Source: Candidatus Thermoflexus tengchongensis (lineage in GTDB: Bacteria > Chloroflexota > Anaerolineae > Thermoflexales > Thermoflexaceae). From it: DNA of 64,000 bases. The translations under genes and the position numbers were made by a program. The stretch lies in NCBI GenBank assembly GCA_016842085.1, contig JAEVEX010000049.1:62001-126000 (forward strand), in the 5' to 3' direction. The notes beneath the pieces were generated by a model that saw only the letters and a list, made by a program, of their open reading frames with translations, searched no databases and was not told the origin of the DNA. How positions within the stretch are numbered: position 1 is the stretch's first letter; every line of letters starts with the position of its first letter. Below are positions 1 to 6,893 of this stretch, in pieces.

Positions 1-2
1 GG

Positions 3-1988
3 CAGGAGCTGATGATCCGGGAATCCGATCTGCTTCAGGCCATGCTGCGCAACGTTGTGGGCTTCGATCTGAACCCCCTGGCGGTGACCACCGCCCGTGT
101 CAACTATCTCCTGGCCATCGCCGATCTGCTGCCCTACCGCAGGGAGAGCATCACGCTGCCGGTCTACCTGGCGGATTCCATCCGCACCCCGGCCATCGGC
201 GAGACCCTGGAGACGGCGGACGCTTATGAGTTCCCGACGGCAGTTGGCTCCTTTCTGGTGCCGGCAGCGCTCTGTCGGCCGGAGCGCTTCGATCGCTTCT
301 GCGACATGCTGGAGGAAAGCATCCGGGCGGGGCTCTCCCCGGAGAGTTTCATGAGGCGGATCGAGGCCGAGCTCCACCTCCTGCCTCCGGAGTGGACAGA
401 GAAGGACGTCCGCCGGACACGGGAGCTTTACGAGAAGGCGGTGGATCTTCACCGCAACGGCCTGAACGGGCTCTGGGCACGTCTGTTAAAGAACAACTTC
501 GCTCCCCTCACCGTGGGACGGTTCGATTACGTTGTGGGCAATCCTCCATGGGTGAACTGGGAGCATTTGCCCAACGGGTATCGGGAGAGCATCGCGGACC
601 TCTGGCGGAAGATGAGCGCGGGAGGGCCTGTCTACCTGGGCAAGAAGTGGGACATCTCGTTGCTCATGACCCAGGTGGCCCTTGCCAATCTGTTGAAGAA
701 TGGCGGACGGTTGGGTTTCGTGATCACCCAATCGGCCTTCAAAACCAACCTCGGGGGGCGGGACTTTCGAAAATTCCAGCTTCCGGATGGGACGCCGATC
801 CGCGTTGTGCATGTGGATGACATGGTCTCGTTGCAGCCTTTCGAAGGAGCCTCCAACCGGACTGCTGTGATGGTGCTGGAAAAGGGCAAGCCCACCCGCT
901 ACCCTGTGCCTTACACCATCTGGCGGAAAGCGCGGGGGGCCCGCTTCACCTATGATAGCACCCTGGCAGAGGTGATGCGCGCTACCCGGCGCCTGAATTT
1001 CGCCGCCGAGCCTGTTAACCCCAGCGATCCGACCTCCCCATGGCTCACGGCCCGGCGGACGGCTCTTAAAGCCCTCCGCAAGGTGCTGGGAAAGTCCGAT
1101 TACGAAGCACACGAGGGCGTTAACACCGGCGGGGCCAACGCCGTCTACTGGGTGGATATCGTCGACGAGCGCCCCGATGGGCTGATGGTGGTGCGCAACA
1201 TCACCGAGGGCGCGAAAGTGAAGGTGGACGAGGTCATCGAGCCGATTGAACCCGACCTGCTCTATCCGCTCCTGCGGGGGCGGGATGTCCAGCGGTGGCA
1301 GGCGAAGCCGTCGGCCTGGATCATCATGACCTACCTCGAAACCGGCGAAGGGCCCCGCATCATCGAGCTTTCGGAGATGGAATACCGTTACCCCCGGGTT
1401 CTGGCTTACTTCCGGCAATTTGAGTCCGTCCTTAAACGCCGAACTCACTACAGGCACTACTTCCAGCCATCAGGCAAACCCTTCTACGCCATGATGCCTA
1501 TGCCAGGCTCCTTCGCCCCGTGGAAGGTGGTGTGGCGGGAGGTGGCGCACACCCTTGATGCCGCTGTTGCTTCGCCTTTGGAGGGCAAGCCTGCCGTGCC
1601 GGCTCATACCCTTGTTCTCATTGGGTGTAAGAGCAAAGAAGAAGCCCATTACCTCTGCGCAGCGCTGAACTCTGCGCCAGCCCGCCTTGGGGTTCAAGCC
1701 TATATCGTGCTCCATCCCGATCCCCATATCCTGGAGCACATCCGCATTCCCCGCTATGATCCGAAGGACCCGGTGCATCGGCGGCTGGCGGAGTTATCCG
1801 TGGAGGCGCACCGGGCAGCGAAGGCGGGGGACAGGAAGCGCCTGGAGCGAATCGAGGCCGAAATCGATCGGGCCGCCGCGCGGCTCTGGGGGCTTACCCG
1901 GGAGGAGCTGGCGGAGATCCAGCGGAGCCTCGCCGAGCTTCGGGAAGCCACGGCTGAGGCAGAGGAGGAGAGGGAGGAACGCGGATGA
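3..1988 (+). CDS. N6-adenine-type DNA methyltransferase, 5'-truncated by window edge
   Basis: The frame is open from the first bases of the window and 661 residues are visible. The first in-frame ATG (base 12) is probably internal, because the SAM-binding motif I expected before 'GFDLNPLAVTTARVNYLLAI' is missing. The catalytic motif IV 'VGNPPWVNW' (NPPW, near residue 180) is that of N6-adenine or N4-cytosine amino-methylases, as in PglX, type IIG and DISARM-type enzymes. A long C-terminal half with 'LLRGRDVQRW' and 'NSAPARLGVQAYI' resembles the target-recognition part of such proteins. The C-terminus is a charged helix. The stop overlaps the next ATG by 4 bp, which implies translational coupling with the nuclease and ATPase genes. 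It probably modifies host DNA within a restriction or defence module. The modified base and target site cannot be read from the sequence. Confidence 0.85.
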   Translation, partial: QELMIRESDLLQAMLRNVVGFDLNPLAVTTARVNYLLAIADLLPYRRESITLPVYLADSIRTPAIGETLETADAYEFPTAVGSFLVPAALCRPERFDRFCDMLEESIRAGLSPESFMRRIEAELHLLPPEWTEKDVRRTRELYEKAVDLHRNGLNGLWARLLKNNFAPLTVGRFDYVVGNPPWVNWEHLPNGYRESIADLWRKMSAGGPVYLGKKWDISLLMTQVALANLLKNGGRLGFVITQSAFKTNLGGRDFRKFQLPDGTPIRVVHVDDMVSLQPFEGASNRTAVMVLEKGKPTRYPVPYTIWRKARGARFTYDSTLAEVMRATRRLNFAAEPVNPSDPTSPWLTARRTALKALRKVLGKSDYEAHEGVNTGGANAVYWVDIVDERPDGLMVVRNITEGAKVKVDEVIEPIEPDLLYPLLRGRDVQRWQAKPSAWIIMTYLETGEGPRIIELSEMEYRYPRVLAYFRQFESVLKRRTHYRHYFQPSGKPFYAMMPMPGSFAPWKVVWREVAHTLDAAVASPLEGKPAVPAHTLVLIGCKSKEEAHYLCAALNSAPARLGVQAYIVLHPDPHILEHIRIPRYDPKDPVHRRLAELSVEAHRAAKAGDRKRLERIEAEIDRAAARLWGLTREELAEIQRSLAELREATAEAEEEREERG

Positions 1989-2443
1989 ACGCCCTTCAGG
2001 ACCTCCGGGCCATCCTGCATGGGATCGCTCAGGAGATCGAGGTCCTCCCGGCCGTCGGCGGCGCGGTCGAAGATCTGGAACGGCCGGATTTCGAGGAGCG
2101 GGAGGATCAGGCGATCAACGAGGAAGAGCGGGTCTTCGAGATGATCTTCGAGACCGGCGAGGGAGGACGGGTTTCCCTTTACCGCCCTCTGGAGCCCATC
2201 GGGCGCGAGCGGGATCATCGCTATCGCTATTTTCTGGACGGCTCCTTCCGTTCCTATTTCCTGGGGACCATCCTGGAGCGGGAGCGGGAGTCGCCGGTGC
2301 ACTTCGCCCAGGTGGGGGCGTGTCTGCTGCGGCGGGAGGATGATGGCTCCGTCCGCCGGGAGGCCCTGGAGGTGCGGGCGCTGCTCCTGGTCGGCCGGCA
2401 GCGCCTGTCCGACGAGCTCTGGGAACGCCTGGAGCAGGAATAA
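1985..2443 (+). CDS. NurA-like nuclease, N-terminal part (motif I)
   Basis: This 152-residue frame overlaps the methylase stop by ATGA. Its distinctive stretch is 'YRYFLDGSFRSYFLG' (about residues 79-93). It matches the N-terminal motif of NurA 5'-3' nucleases, where the Asp of DGS binds the catalytic metal. The protein ends just where a NurA would continue. The next frame, starting 5 bases after this stop, carries the second DGS motif and the C-terminal motif. It is therefore either the first half of a genuinely two-polypeptide nuclease or the 5' part of one gene broken by a one-base shift near base 2441. No other domain is visible. Confidence 0.65.
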   Translation: MNALQDLRAILHGIAQEIEVLPAVGGAVEDLERPDFEEREDQAINEEERVFEMIFETGEGGRVSLYRPLEPIGRERDHRYRYFLDGSFRSYFLGTILERERESPVHFAQVGACLLRREDDGSVRREALEVRALLLVGRQRLSDELWERLEQE

Positions 2444-2447
2444 AAGG

Positions 2448-3110
2448 GTGGGCATCCGTCTGGTGGATCTCACCGCGCCGGATATCGTCAGCCGGGTGCT
2501 CTCGGATTTCGACCTGCGCAACAAGGCGGGGGGCAAGGTCCGCTATGAGATGCGTTGCCTGGAGGCGGAGCTGCTCCTCCAGGGGCTGAAGCAGGCCCCG
2601 CCGGACGCATGGATCGTTGCGGATGGCTCCCTGCTCTTCCAGCCCATTTTGAACGGCCTGCTCCAGGCCGAGGGGATCCCCCGAGTGATCGGGGTCTCCA
2701 AGAATTTCCGCAAGGATCCCCAGTTCGTCTTCGGCCGCGGCCCCCGGGCGGAGCGGCGGAGCATCTATCAGCTGCTGGCTGACCTCCCGGCGTCTCATCG
2801 GACCGCAGCCTTCAGTGCCCAGGGAGGGAAAGTTGTCTTCTGGTATGTGCGCCTGCGGGAGCAACGCCACCTGGATTACCCCATGATGGGCGTGGTCAAG
2901 GTGGAGCTGGCCAATCCCTCCCAGGAGCCGGTGGACTCTGCCATGCTGGATGCTCTCTCCGCGGCCCTTGTGGCCGAACGGAGCGTGACGCCCCATGGTC
3001 AGGATCGCCGCTGGCATGCCCATCTCTACCCGATCTTCCTCGCAGAACGCGCAGTCAGGGAAAGCCTGTTTGCCCGGGAAGTGGTCCAGCAGTTCGTGCG
3101 CTGGAGGTGA
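2448..3110 (+). CDS. NurA-like nuclease, C-terminal part
   Basis: The GTG at 2448 follows the previous stop by 4 nt. The same frame is open back to 2340, inside the upstream gene. The 220-residue product has 'DAWIVADGSLLFQPIL' (about residues 48-63), like the second metal-binding Asp motif of NurA. It then has 'IGVSKNF', a 'YQLLADLP' segment and a C-terminal 'WHAHLYPIFLAERAVRE', which resembles the YP-x-L-x-x-A region closing NurA domains. NurA partners the hexameric ATPase HerA in end resection and in several defence systems, and a HerA-like gene follows after 6 bp. The family assignment is by motif order only. It may function as one protein with the preceding frame. Confidence 0.65.
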   Translation: MGIRLVDLTAPDIVSRVLSDFDLRNKAGGKVRYEMRCLEAELLLQGLKQAPPDAWIVADGSLLFQPILNGLLQAEGIPRVIGVSKNFRKDPQFVFGRGPRAERRSIYQLLADLPASHRTAAFSAQGGKVVFWYVRLREQRHLDYPMMGVVKVELANPSQEPVDSAMLDALSAALVAERSVTPHGQDRRWHAHLYPIFLAERAVRESLFAREVVQQFVRWR

Positions 3111-3116
3111 GCAGCC

Positions 3117-4817
3117 ATGGCGGAACGGGAGGAACGACCGATTATCGGCCTGAGCTCAGCGACCGCCCATGAGCCAAACACTTCGGACGCGTTCTCTTTC
3201 TGGCTGACGCCGGGGGTTATCGTGAACCCCTTTGATATCGTGGAAGCGGAGCAGGTCGCCCCTGATGGCGCCAGCCGGACTTTCGGGATTGTGGTCGATC
3301 TGGAGCACAGCACCGATGCCCCCACCCATCTCTCGAATTTCATTTCCAACGACTTCGGGCAGGTCCATGTCAACCCGAACACTGTCCGGCAGGGCACGAC
3401 GGTTGCCCGGGCGGCGGTCCTTTCTAATAACCGGGATATCTATATGCCGGTGATGAACGATCGCCCGGTTCGCTTCGCGGATGCGGAGGGTATCCACATG
3501 GCCCTCGGACTGGATCAGATCCCGGAACGCTATCGGGTCCCGGCCGGGCTGATCCGCATGTCCAACGGCACGGAGGCTCCGGTCTATCTGGATCTGCGCT
3601 ATGTGCTGGGGCCAGAAGGGGCACACGTGAACATCACCGGCATCTCCGGCCTGGCCACCAAGACCAGCTACGCCATGTTCCTGCTTCAGGCCATCCTGCA
3701 GACCGCCGAGCGAACCGGCCAGCGGGGGAAGATCGCTGCAATCGTTCTGAACGTCAAGCATGGCGACCTGCTGAGCATCGATCAACCGCCGAAGAGGGGA
3801 CTGGAGCCGGAGCAGCATGAGCTGTGGGAGCGCCTGGGCCTTTCGCCGAAGCCCTTCAACAATGTCCGCTATCTCCTCCCCCATGGCAAAGACACCCCTC
3901 GCACCGGCCGGCCGAACAGCTTCCGCCTGCCAGATCGGAACTGGCGGATCTATGCCTACAGCCTCCAGGATGCTTATACCAAGCTGGATCTCCTCCTCTC
4001 CCAGATCCCGGATCCATGGGATACCCTCAGTGCCCTGATCGGGGAGATCGCCTCAGGGCTCTCGGATCCCAAAACCGGCCAATGGGGACCGCGGGGGAAA
4101 TGGGCCCAGGTCACAGACTGGCGCGGGTTGCTTTATGGGCCGCCCCTTGTGGACCCCCAGACCGGACAGAGTCAGAAGGTGGGCGAGGTTCCTGCGGTGA
4201 CCGTAGGCCGTTTCCGCCGCATCCTGCGCCGCATTGTGGAGACCCGGCAGAGCGGCATCTTCGTTGCCCAGCGCCGAAAGGGCATCGTCAGCATCAGCGA
4301 GGAGATCGCAAAAATCCGCGGGGGCGAGGTGGTGGTCGTGGATATCGCCAAACTGACTGATGACGAACAGACGCTGGTGTTTGGGGATATCCTGCGGACC
4401 ATCTATGCCCTCTACGCCGAGGGGACGGAAGAGGCCGATGAGCTTCCAGAAAAGGTGATCATCTTCGTGGATGAGCTCAACAAATACGCGCCGGCCCGGG
4501 AGCGGGAATCCCCGATCATCGAGCAGGTCCTGGATATCGCCGAGCGTGGCCGGTCTCTGGGGGTGGTGCTTTTCGGGGCTGAGCAATTCATGAGCGCGAT
4601 CCATGAGCGGGTGGCAGGCAACTGCGCCACCATGGTCATCGGCCGCAGCGGCTCCGCGGAGCTCTCTGCGCCCCATTATCGCTTCCTGAACCAGGAGGTG
4701 AAGGCGAATATCACCCGCCTGGAGAAGGGGGAGCTGGTGCTCAGCCACGCCATCTACCGGCAGCCAGTGAAGATCGTCTTCCCCAAGCCGGCTTATCTCC
4801 AGGAAGGGGTGGAGTAA
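3117..4817 (+). CDS. HerA-like P-loop ATPase (DUF87/FtsK-HerA type)
   Basis: This 566-residue protein starts at ATG 3117, 6 bp after the nuclease stop. Residues about 30-165 look like the beta-barrel (HAS-barrel) preceding the ATPase core of HerA. The P-loop is at about 175-184, 'GISGLATKTS', with Thr where the canonical Gly precedes Lys. A Walker B lies at about 446-455, 'VIIFVDELNK', with Asp-Glu followed by Asn-Lys-Tyr. The segment 'ERGRSLGVVLFGAEQF' resembles the sensor region of the family. HerA hexamers translocate DNA and drive the NurA nuclease, and the gene order here fits that. As inference, it would power DNA degradation in the methylase-NurA-HerA module. A role in housekeeping repair is possible but less likely next to a modification methylase. 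Confidence 0.82.
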   Translation: MAEREERPIIGLSSATAHEPNTSDAFSFWLTPGVIVNPFDIVEAEQVAPDGASRTFGIVVDLEHSTDAPTHLSNFISNDFGQVHVNPNTVRQGTTVARAAVLSNNRDIYMPVMNDRPVRFADAEGIHMALGLDQIPERYRVPAGLIRMSNGTEAPVYLDLRYVLGPEGAHVNITGISGLATKTSYAMFLLQAILQTAERTGQRGKIAAIVLNVKHGDLLSIDQPPKRGLEPEQHELWERLGLSPKPFNNVRYLLPHGKDTPRTGRPNSFRLPDRNWRIYAYSLQDAYTKLDLLLSQIPDPWDTLSALIGEIASGLSDPKTGQWGPRGKWAQVTDWRGLLYGPPLVDPQTGQSQKVGEVPAVTVGRFRRILRRIVETRQSGIFVAQRRKGIVSISEEIAKIRGGEVVVVDIAKLTDDEQTLVFGDILRTIYALYAEGTEEADELPEKVIIFVDELNKYAPARERESPIIEQVLDIAERGRSLGVVLFGAEQFMSAIHERVAGNCATMVIGRSGSAELSAPHYRFLNQEVKANITRLEKGELVLSHAIYRQPVKIVFPKPAYLQEGVE

Positions 4818-4894
4818 CGCTGGATTTAGCTGTGGGCCCGGAGTTCAGGTGGAGGGCTTTGATACGGCAAGGGCCGTTCCGGAAAACGGCTTTC

Positions 4895-5452
4895 CTACCC
4901 CAGGATCTCCTCGATCGCTACCGTGAGCCCGGGGATCAGGATGGGGCTTACGGTCTCACCCCGGCGAGCGATGCGTCGGCCCCGATAGCCCTCGGGGCCG
5001 GGCTGGCGGTAGATCTCGACGTGTTCTTCGGTGAGGTCCACGAGCCAGGCCTCGGGGATGCCGTGGCGGGCGTAGAGGGGGATCTTGACCGTGCGGTCGT
5101 AGTCGGCGGAGGTTTCGGCCACCTCCACGATGAGGAGGACGTCCTCCGGCCCCGGGTGGGCGGAGGCGTAAAAATCGGGGCGGTAGCGAAGCAGCGCTAC
5201 GTCCGGTTGCGGCTCGGAGTGCGGCCCCAGGCGGACCGGGTTCTGAACCCAAACAATGCCCCACCCTCCGATTCGGGAGAGCAGAGCGGTGAGTCGGGCG
5301 ACTGCCGCCGCGTGTCGGCTTCCGATGGGGCTCATGGCGATGAGCTCTCCCTCGATGAGTTCGACGCGGTCGTCCTCGGAGAGGATGCCGGCCTCGGCCA
5401 TTCGATGGTATTCCTCCACGGTGAACAGGCGTCGCTGCACCTGGACGCTCAT
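4895..5452 (-). CDS. Uma2 family endonuclease (copy 3 of tandem)
   Basis: This 185-residue protein has the Uma2 (DUF820) restriction-endonuclease-like fold. It shows the N-terminal 'FTVEEYHRMAEAGILSEDDR', then 'VELIEGELIAMSPIGSRH'. The PD-(D/E)xK elements are 'QPDVALLR', 'LLIVEVAETSADYDRTVK' and 'YARHGIPEAWLVDL'. It is last of three near-identical paralogues on the minus strand, separated by 18 bp from its neighbour, so they are probably co-transcribed. Residues about 49-80 differ from the siblings, whereas the first 48 and the catalytic core are almost identical. Uma2 proteins are common in cyanobacteria and Chloroflexota, and their biological role is not established. Confidence 0.88.
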   Translation of the reverse strand: MSVQVQRRLFTVEEYHRMAEAGILSEDDRVELIEGELIAMSPIGSRHAAAVARLTALLSRIGGWGIVWVQNPVRLGPHSEPQPDVALLRYRPDFYASAHPGPEDVLLIVEVAETSADYDRTVKIPLYARHGIPEAWLVDLTEEHVEIYRQPGPEGYRGRRIARRGETVSPILIPGLTVAIEEILG

Positions 5453-5470
5453 CGTTCGCCTCCCGATGTT

Positions 5471-6031
5471 CTATCCCAGGATATCCTCCACCGCGATGGT
5501 CAGCTCGGGCAGGGCGGTGGGGCGGAGCGTTTGGCCGCGCCGGGCGGTTCGGGTTTCCCGGTAGCCTTCCGGGCCGGGCTGGCGGTAGATCTCGATGTGT
5601 TCTTCAGTGAGGTCCACAAGCCAGGCCTCGGGGATGCCGTGGCGGGCGTAGAGGGGGATCTTGACGGCCCGGTCGTAGTCGGCGGAGGTTTCGGCCACCT
5701 CCACGATGAGGAGGACGTCCTCCGGCCCCGGGTGGGCGGAGGCGTAGAAATCGGGGCGGTAGCGGAGCAGCGTTAGATCCGGCTGGGGTTCGGAGTGCGC
5801 GCTGAGGCGAAGCGGGTTCTGAACCCGGACGATGATGGGCTCACGCGTGTGCCGGGAGAACAGGTAATTCAGCCGGTCCACAACGCCCGCGTGTCGGCTT
5901 CCGATGGGGCTCATGGCGATGAGCTCTCCCTCGATGAGTTCGACGCGGTCATCCTCGGAGAGGATGCCGGCCTCGGCCATTCGATGGTATTCCTCCACGG
6001 TGAACAGGCGCCGCTGCACCTGGACGCTCAT
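5471..6031 (-). CDS. Uma2 family endonuclease (copy 2 of tandem)
   Basis: This 186-residue middle member of the Uma2 triplet begins with the same 'MSVQVQRRLFTVEEYHRMAE' as the others. It keeps the catalytic elements 'QPDLTLLR', 'VLLIVEVAETSADYDRAVK' and 'ARHGIPEAWLVDLTEEH'. Its variable segment (about 49-80) contains 'LNYLFSRHTREPIIVRVQ', unlike either neighbour. The 18-bp gaps on both sides share the string ATGTTCTATCCCAG, which fits tandem duplication of a whole gene plus spacer. Function beyond a nuclease fold is unknown. Confidence 0.88.
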   Translation of the reverse strand: MSVQVQRRLFTVEEYHRMAEAGILSEDDRVELIEGELIAMSPIGSRHAGVVDRLNYLFSRHTREPIIVRVQNPLRLSAHSEPQPDLTLLRYRPDFYASAHPGPEDVLLIVEVAETSADYDRAVKIPLYARHGIPEAWLVDLTEEHIEIYRQPGPEGYRETRTARRGQTLRPTALPELTIAVEDILG

Positions 6032-6049
6032 CCCTGGCCTCCAGATGTT

Positions 6050-6610
6050 CTATCCCAGGATATCCTCCACGGCGATCGTCAGCCCGGGCAGGGCGATGGG
6101 GTGGAGCGTTTCGCCGCGCCGGGCGGTTCGGGTTTCCCGGTAGCCCTGGGGGGAGGGCTGGCGGTAGATCTCGATGTGTTCTTCAGTGAGGTCCACGAGC
6201 CAGGCTTCGGGGATGCCGTGGCGGGCGTAGAGGGGGATCTTGACCGTGCGGTCGTAGTCGGCGGAGGTCTCGGCCACCTCCACGATGAGGAGGACATCCT
6301 CCGGCCCCGGGTGGGCGGAGGCATAGAAATCCGGGCGATGGCGGAGCAGGGCCACATCGGGCTGCGGCTCCGAATGCCGCCCCAGGCGGATGGGATCCTG
6401 AGCGCTGACGATGGCTCGCTCCCCCACGGCTCGATCCAGGAGCCGGACGAGGCGCTTCACGCAGGCGGCGTGACGGCTGCCGATGGGGCTCATGGCGATG
6501 AGTTCTCCTTCGATGAGCTCGATACGATCGTCTTCGGAGAGGATGCCGGCCTCGGCCATTCGATGGTATTCTTCCACGGTGAACAGGCGCCGCTGCACCT
6601 GAACGCTCAT
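6050..6610 (-). CDS. Uma2 family endonuclease (copy 1 of tandem)
   Basis: This is the promoter-proximal member of the triplet, 186 residues from the ATG at 6610. That start was chosen because all three copies then begin with the same MSVQVQRR sequence; the frame stays open 12 codons further upstream. Catalytic PD-(D/E)xK elements are present ('QPDVALLRHR', 'LLIVEVAETSADYDRTVK'). The variable middle (about 49-80) reads 'LVRLLDRAVGERAIVSAQ'. The 283 bp between this gene and the divergent oxidase gene must hold promoters for both, but I see no convincing -35/-10 pair. Confidence 0.88.
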   Translation of the reverse strand: MSVQVQRRLFTVEEYHRMAEAGILSEDDRIELIEGELIAMSPIGSRHAACVKRLVRLLDRAVGERAIVSAQDPIRLGRHSEPQPDVALLRHRPDFYASAHPGPEDVLLIVEVAETSADYDRTVKIPLYARHGIPEAWLVDLTEEHIEIYRQPSPQGYRETRTARRGETLHPIALPGLTIAVEDILG

Positions 6611-6893
6611 CCCCTGCCTCCCTGGACGCTGATCTGGAAAGGCCATGCGAAGCCCGGCTTGCTTTCAGATTAACACCGAACCGGGATCCGGCCAAGGGAT
6701 GGCTCTTTCCCGTCGGAAACAGAAAAAACCAAACCATGGATGAGATCTGGACCATCTCCGGGATCTGCCATATCTTTGAAGGGGAGTGATTTTCAGCCTC
6801 CATCCGGCTCGAGCGGGAAGACTCTCCGGGCAGGGTGGAGGTCAGCCCCGTGAGCCATGTATCTTTCCACATTGCCTGGTAGGGGGAAGCGCC

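Follow-up and report, generated by a model that had tools for sequence, protein, structure and literature searches.

The first three genes of the window, by which we mean the whole 64,000-nucleotide stretch analysed here of the genome of Candidatus Thermoflexus tengchongensis, a thermophilic member of the Chloroflexota (G000:C20:62001-126000; host genome of 3.89 Mb in 100 contigs), encode a type IIG restriction-methylation (RM) enzyme, a NurA-like nuclease and a HerA-like ATPase. The genes are predicted to form a translationally coupled operon and, as judged from their sequences, the set is one already described: a relative of the tdtA operon of the Thermus integrative and conjugative element (ICE) ICETh1 (PMC5365140, PMC7767461). 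An earlier, sequence-only reading of this DNA had proposed an undescribed defence system, a claim that this relationship removes. We suggest, with about even confidence, that the genes form a mobile cassette, RM-NurA-HerA, of the tdtA-operon type that acts as a restriction-type defence.

The three genes are co-directional on the + strand, and the coordinates reported for them earlier check out. The RM gene stops at 1988 and the NurA-like ATG lies at 1985, giving a 4-bp overlap, and the HerA gene starts 6 bp after the end of the second NurA frame at 3110. The features, with strand and basis, are as follows.

1..1988, + strand: C-terminal part (residues ~450-1112) of the type IIG restriction-methylation enzyme; Eco57I profile, PADLOC and motifs.
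1985..2443, + strand: N-terminal fragment of the NurA-like nuclease, 152 amino acids (aa); profile of intact relatives, positions 1-153, E 4.7e-61.
2430..2450, + strand: site of the nurA frameshift; TAA at 2441-2443, ~2 nt short compared to intact relatives.
2448..3110, + strand: C-terminal fragment of the NurA-like nuclease, 220 aa; family profile E 8.5e-98, NurA Pfam E 0.0028.
3117..4817, + strand: HerA/FtsK-type ATPase, 566 aa, kin of TdtA and HerA; D. radiodurans HerA profile and fold.
4818..4888, no strand: right end of the inserted cassette; in G102, a genome with the empty site, hutI runs on into the sequence at 4889.

In T. thermophilus HB27, ICETh1 carries TTC1877, encoding the type IIG enzyme Tth111II (1,106 aa), TTC1878 for a NurA-like protein (377 aa), TTC1879 for TdtA (568 aa) and TTC1880 for a methylase (410 aa) (PMC5365140). 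Tth111II, renamed TthHB27I in a later paper (PMC7767461), is an active bifunctional IIG enzyme (PMC5365140, PMC7767461). The window has the same three families with the same order and coupling, at 1,112, ~374 and 566 aa compared to 1,106, 377 and 568 aa. In both, a type IIG enzyme of ~1,100 aa comes first and the NurA-like gene lies directly upstream of the HerA/FtsK ATPase gene, the NurA frame being broken in the window. In contrast, the Thermus operon has a fourth gene for an N4/N6 methylase (~410 aa) where the window has opposite-strand Uma2 genes, and ICETh1 has an integrase and direct repeats at a tRNA gene whereas the window holds a bare 6,420-bp cassette that is not an ICE. No tRNA gene was found within the window. 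The window HerA also falls in a three-gene thermophile clade, unlike the ICETh1 form. The link to the HB27 operon was drawn through T. scotoductus DSM 8553, whose cluster was mentioned as tdtA-like in 2017 (PMC5365140), and through the published gene sizes; that cluster is our locus L041, a three-gene form lacking the fourth methylase. Deletion of tdtA in T. thermophilus abolishes DNA donation in transjugation, and donation falls by 4-5 logs without nurA and by ~3 logs without Tth111II (PMC5365140, PMC7767461). In the model of the Thermus authors, the RM enzyme cuts and TdtA then exports the DNA with the help of NurA (PMC7767461).

The first gene had been read as a methylase coupled to NurA by a 4-bp overlap. 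The overlap stands, and what was read as a methylase makes up the C-terminal 60% of a 1,112-aa protein cut by the window edge. The start of its gene, at C20:60653 (TTG) or 60671 (ATG), lies 1,348 or 1,330 bp ahead of base 1. The protein matches the Eco57I methylase profile (E 4.7e-13) and scores 885 and 806 bits against the PADLOC models for type II and type IIG restriction enzymes, compared to only 17 bits against the PglX model; in a full-length relative, the PADLOC IIG model was matched along 1,091 residues. E35, D71 and E80 of the N-terminal nuclease motif, D430-P-x-C-G-S-G (motif I, DPACGSG) and NPPW were invariant in 49/49 relatives. The nuclease motif and methylase motif I are encoded upstream of base 1, and motif IV, NPPW, lies at 540-551. 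Collectively, these results identify a predicted bifunctional type IIG enzyme, with a PD-(D/E)xK-like nuclease, an N6-type methylase and a specificity region in one chain, the C-terminal specificity region being assigned from the family match. The enzyme matches type IIG enzymes of the TspDTI/Tth111II kind (PADLOC PDLC03630/PDLC03580) over the full length and in every catalytic motif; those enzymes are usually solitary, whereas the window enzyme has a dedicated nuclease-translocase. Position 82 is K in 17 of the 49 relatives, the window enzyme among them, and E in the other 32. The idea that E in place of K marks NurA-dependent forms was not supported: both residues occur under both gene orders and in enzymes without NurA-HerA.

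The HerA-like ATPase 6 bp after NurA was borne out. It matches the profile of D. radiodurans HerA with E 8.2e-59, and a model of moderate confidence (pLDDT 65) superposes on that protein with Z 25.9-26.3 at 31-33% identity. A Walker A variant, GISGLATKTS, is encoded at 3639-3668 and aligns with GISGVATKTS of D. radiodurans HerA (drHerA), and the Walker B acidic pair, D452/E453, is encoded at 4470-4475. These motif residues were invariant in 11/11 sequences, save for one S/G exception in the P-loop. K175 and T176 of drHerA bind nucleotide and Mg (PMC9960219), and the K and T of the window P-loop should correspond to them. The HAS-barrel, Walker A and B motifs and HerA-type core confirm the protein as a HerA ATPase. 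A profile search found no second HerA of this kind elsewhere in the genome.

The NurA-like gene is not a single frame. The frame from 1985 closes with a TAA at 2443, and the remainder continues in another frame to 3110; a profile built on intact relatives matches both pieces, at positions 1-153 and 157-371, and a hand count on the alignment puts the deficit at ~2 nt relative to intact genes. The N-terminal fragment carries the first catalytic-type Asp (FLDGS), and the C-terminal fragment carries the remaining conserved residues: E, the second DG, K and WHAHLYP. On the C-terminal fragment, the Pfam NurA model scores 17.6 bits (E 0.0028), just under its 21-bit cut-off; the family profile and the fold support NurA. 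A model of the intact relative from L020 (mean pLDDT 77) gave Z 18.0 to D. radiodurans NurA (7f6d_G), 17.0 to Thermotoga TM1739, 14.4 to Sulfolobus NurA (SsoNurA) and 12.2-12.7 to the TdpAB nuclease. The modelled RNase H-like NurA fold and the conserved acidic residues thus confirm the NurA-like identity claimed by the sequence-only reading, for a gene split in two frames near 2441. Two more NurA-domain proteins above the Pfam cut-off are encoded elsewhere in the genome (G000:C9:41635-42468 and G000:C100:3182-4006) and are probably ordinary repair copies.

nurA is a single open frame in the same-genus genome at L033 and in nearly all other relatives, and breaks in NurA, HerA or RM frames are sporadic, each confined to a single locus; a programmed frameshift is not favoured on these grounds. 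dN/dS against the same-genus copy is 0.135/0.74 (~0.18) for the N-terminal fragment and 0.089/0.82 (~0.11) for the C-terminal fragment. A GTG at 2448, 5 nt beyond the stop and with AGGA 8 nt before it, offers possible re-initiation. Both fragments still seem to be under constraint, so that the frame was broken recently, or results from an assembly error, which is possible in an assembly of 100 contigs, or is tolerated through re-initiation at the GTG. The window nurA is either recently crippled, split but re-initiated, or misassembled. With NurA broken, the window copy may now work only as a stand-alone IIG enzyme.

We scanned 84,980 species, with one genome for each, which gave 490 relatives, and studied the best-scoring 80 loci. 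Window-type HerA is present in 15 of the 298 genomes of the class. NurA adjoins HerA in 76 of the 80 loci and is directly upstream of it in 74, with a spacing within 30 nt in 75 of the 76. An RM enzyme lies near in 58/80. The earlier link of NurA-HerA to a modification enzyme was right. Median gaps between core genes are -4 to +14 nt, and the RM-NurA overlap is typically 4 bp. This grouping of NurA and RM genes with HerA is far beyond chance. A second methylase of ~410 aa occurs in 28/80 loci, in each case immediately behind HerA; radical-SAM proteins occur in 17/80 and Hsp90-like ATPases in 10/80. Four layouts recurred: RM-NurA-HerA (in the window, T. scotoductus L041 and Armatimonadota, among others), RM-NurA-HerA-methylase (in Moorella sulfitireducens L074, among others), NurA-HerA-RM, frequently followed by a radical-SAM gene, and NurA-HerA-Hsp90-radical SAM with no RM enzyme (in Clostridia, among others; examples of Hsp90/radical-SAM loci are those of Clostridium mobile and Ruminiclostridium hungatei). 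RM is absent within six genes in 22 of the 80 loci, nine of which have Hsp90-like and radical-SAM genes instead. Since contig ends truncate some of the loci, gene absences are upper limits.

A comparison with genomes of the same genus delimits the cassette. In G102, hutI (93% DNA identity) runs straight into the sequence that starts at 4889 of the window, and the 6,420 bp missing there are exactly RM, NurA and HerA. The left end lies 1,531 bp before base 1, directly past the stop codon of hutI (imidazolonepropionase, identity read from its translation; C20:59143-60462), the upstream neighbour of the RM gene. This clean empty site shows that the three genes were gained or lost as one unit; no transposase or integrase was found inside the 6,420 bp. 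In G122 and G159, hutI adjoins a CO-dehydrogenase gene, and G122 has its own RM-NurA-HerA at another place. In the HerA tree, the window sequence groups with Thermodesulfobacterium and Thermokryptus (support 100/95), apart from its genus mate. Its nearest kin are in other phyla, suggesting horizontal transfer. Together, these comparisons indicate a cassette that is mobile and patchy and has spread horizontally across distant bacteria. Directly after it, at 4895-6646 on the - strand, a Uma2-like gene is present in three tandem near-copies (185-198 aa; Pfam-tested for the first copy). G010 and G102 have matching sequence at this position, and G122 and G159 do not. Among 102 neighbour genes of relatives, PADLOC matches were to AriA, AbiLi, Old, GajA and HEC-01; in a control of 40 window genes, matches were to six families, one gene each. 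Only ~3 of the 102 neighbours are integrase-domain genes.

The sequence-only reading had likened the operon to known defence modules and raised the possibility of a helicase upstream of base 1. Upstream of base 1 are the RM gene start and then hutI, with ordinary genes across 17 kb upstream of the window. Such housekeeping neighbours had been named as a sign against defence; hutI is one, but the cassette has been inserted beside it. The helicase-methylase-ATPase (HMA) type was rejected because the operon has no helicase gene and is flanked by hutI upstream and Uma2 downstream, BREX because no PglZ or BrxC/PglY lies beside the cassette, and DISARM because neither the DrmA helicase nor DrmB (DUF1998) is among the cassette or flanking genes. 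An archaeal-type repair cluster was likewise rejected, as no mre11/rad50 adjoin nurA/herA between these flanks; a distant plasmid homologue (26%) does have an mre11/rad50 context. The observation of the sequence-only reading was thus partly confirmed and its interpretation partly supported: the comparison with HMA, BREX or DISARM did not hold, and a defence-like lifestyle, mobile, patchy and with defence-like neighbours in relatives, did.

NurA-HerA of D. radiodurans (PDB 7f6d) is the best sequence and fold match of both window proteins, and its Walker A Lys-Thr and Walker B pair are also present in the window HerA. In D. radiodurans the two genes form a stand-alone operon for end processing, whereas the window pair is tied to a restriction enzyme. 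TdpAB acts as the restriction component in a phosphorothioate RM system of thermophiles, in which the partner makes a phosphorothioate rather than a methylation. It too combines a HerA-like ring with a NurA-like nuclease (PDB 8wet/8wfd; Z 17.4-17.9 and 12.2-12.7 to window-type proteins) but is distant in sequence, with no profile match. The anti-phage complexes HerA-DUF4297 and SIR2-HerA (Nezha) share with the window a HerA ring with a partner enzyme; they differ in having another nuclease or an NADase as partner and no methylase, and their HerA is 11-14% identical in structural alignment. NurA-HerA joins TdpAB, HerA-DUF4297 and SIR2-HerA as a motor reused with different partners. D. radiodurans NurA-HerA also cuts a 3' tail (PMC9960219), and T. 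kodakarensis HerA-NurA degrades both DNA strands, with an antiviral role proposed (PMC12977600).

If the cassette acts in restriction, the type IIG enzyme would methylate its recognition sequence in host DNA and nick or cut unmethylated DNA. A HerA hexamer would load at the breaks and pump duplex into a NurA dimer, which would degrade both strands, so that a slow single-site restriction enzyme would bring about the processive destruction of foreign DNA. Since the same machine serves DNA donation in ICETh1, the sequence of cutting at IIG sites followed by translocation or processing by HerA-NurA is more secure than its purpose. Several points weigh against a defence role. No phage-defence experiment was found for any family member, the sole genetics, in T. 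thermophilus, supports DNA donation, and no paper within one open-access library was found to propose defence for a tdtA-type operon. nurA is frameshifted in the window copy. The PADLOC control for neighbours was small and from a single genome, and AAA/OLD-type ATPases, for which PADLOC models cast a wide net, account for many of the neighbour matches. The last residue of the RM nuclease motif is E in most relatives, so that cutting may be weak in many of them (the window enzyme has K), and homologous IIG enzymes also exist without NurA-HerA, so that they can do without the motor. A role in restriction-based defence is plausible, with DNA donation as its experimentally supported rival. Donation, in which the operon would serve to nick the chromosome of the donor at IIG sites and to pump DNA out to competent neighbours in transjugation, is possible if somewhat doubtful for the window. 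It draws on the same genes and order in ICETh1, on the deletions of tdtA, nurA and Tth111II that cut donation there (PMC5365140, PMC7767461) and on the naming of the L041 cluster in 2017; ComEC and DprA genes are present in the host genome, so that donation to competent neighbours stays a candidate. Set against it are the bare window cassette, with no integrase, att repeats or tRNA nearby, the scarcity of integrase-domain genes among the neighbours of relatives and the many relatives that sit beside defence-like genes.

We consider it improbable that the cassette is a selfish type IIG RM system with an attached NurA-HerA pair mending or processing the breaks it makes in the host. Elsewhere, in archaea and D. 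radiodurans, NurA-HerA is an end-processing pair, the same IIG family also occurs alone and the host has its two other NurA-domain proteins, but NurA-HerA is the constant core and RM the variable part among the 80 loci, and no Mre11/Rad50 genes lie beside the cassette. That this copy alone is a dead remnant with a pseudogenised nurA is possible rather than probable, and compatible with the other explanations. The frameshift here and the intact copies elsewhere would fit a remnant, whereas RM and HerA are open over their full length, dN/dS is low in both NurA fragments, the 100-contig assembly leaves room for a sequence error and a GTG with a good ribosome site follows the stop. Beyond the window, NurA-HerA could be a restriction motor of general use whose DNA-marking partners are exchangeable, namely the type IIG enzyme, the second methylase or a (B12-type) radical-SAM enzyme, the last accompanied in Clostridia and others by an Hsp90-like ATPase with no methylase close by; this is a tentative and rather unlikely proposal. 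If true, the radical-SAM forms would label self DNA through a chemistry as yet undescribed for restriction systems. Until now the tdtA operon has been known solely as a machine for gene donation in one Thermus element. Its relatives across many phyla, as a bare three-gene cassette beside defence-like genes, make it a testable question whether Thermus turned a restriction system into a DNA exporter or whether the operon is an exporter everywhere. What is new here is the 6,420-bp empty site, the HerA kin in other phyla, the defence-like neighbours and the alternative NurA-HerA partners.

Within one open-access library, no paper was found describing radical-SAM forms of NurA-HerA loci, which is no proof of novelty. 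In L105 (11665-14924), L106, L107, L108, L111-L114 and L102, NurA-HerA is followed by an Hsp90-like (GHKL) ATPase with no methylase nearby. A radical-SAM protein (CxxxCxxC) follows this ATPase in 8/9 of these tightly coupled operons, and in L102 it lies just upstream of NurA. In L056 (9516-11090), L067, L082, L094, L101 and L110, a radical-SAM protein stands behind NurA-HerA-RM; copies across phyla are 60-72% identical to that of L056, in which a B12-binding domain match was found. Three extra genes (~360, ~400 and ~270 aa) lie between RM and NurA in L070, L073, L078 and L080, the second encoding a STAND/BrxC-D-like ATPase and the third a PIN-like protein. In L075, L088 and L092, an AAA_21/OLD-like ATPase and a ~240-aa partner are encoded directly upstream of NurA-HerA-methylase, and the neighbour set including this pair matches PADLOC HEC-01A/B. 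One Chloroflexota relative has a DUF3800 gene between RM and NurA (L043:7959-8858, equal to L022:7609-8508). The HerA homologues found in plasmid and phage collections were all distant, among them a NurA-HerA pair of this family in Marinitoga camini virus 1 (KP836355.1:38501-41209, L158).

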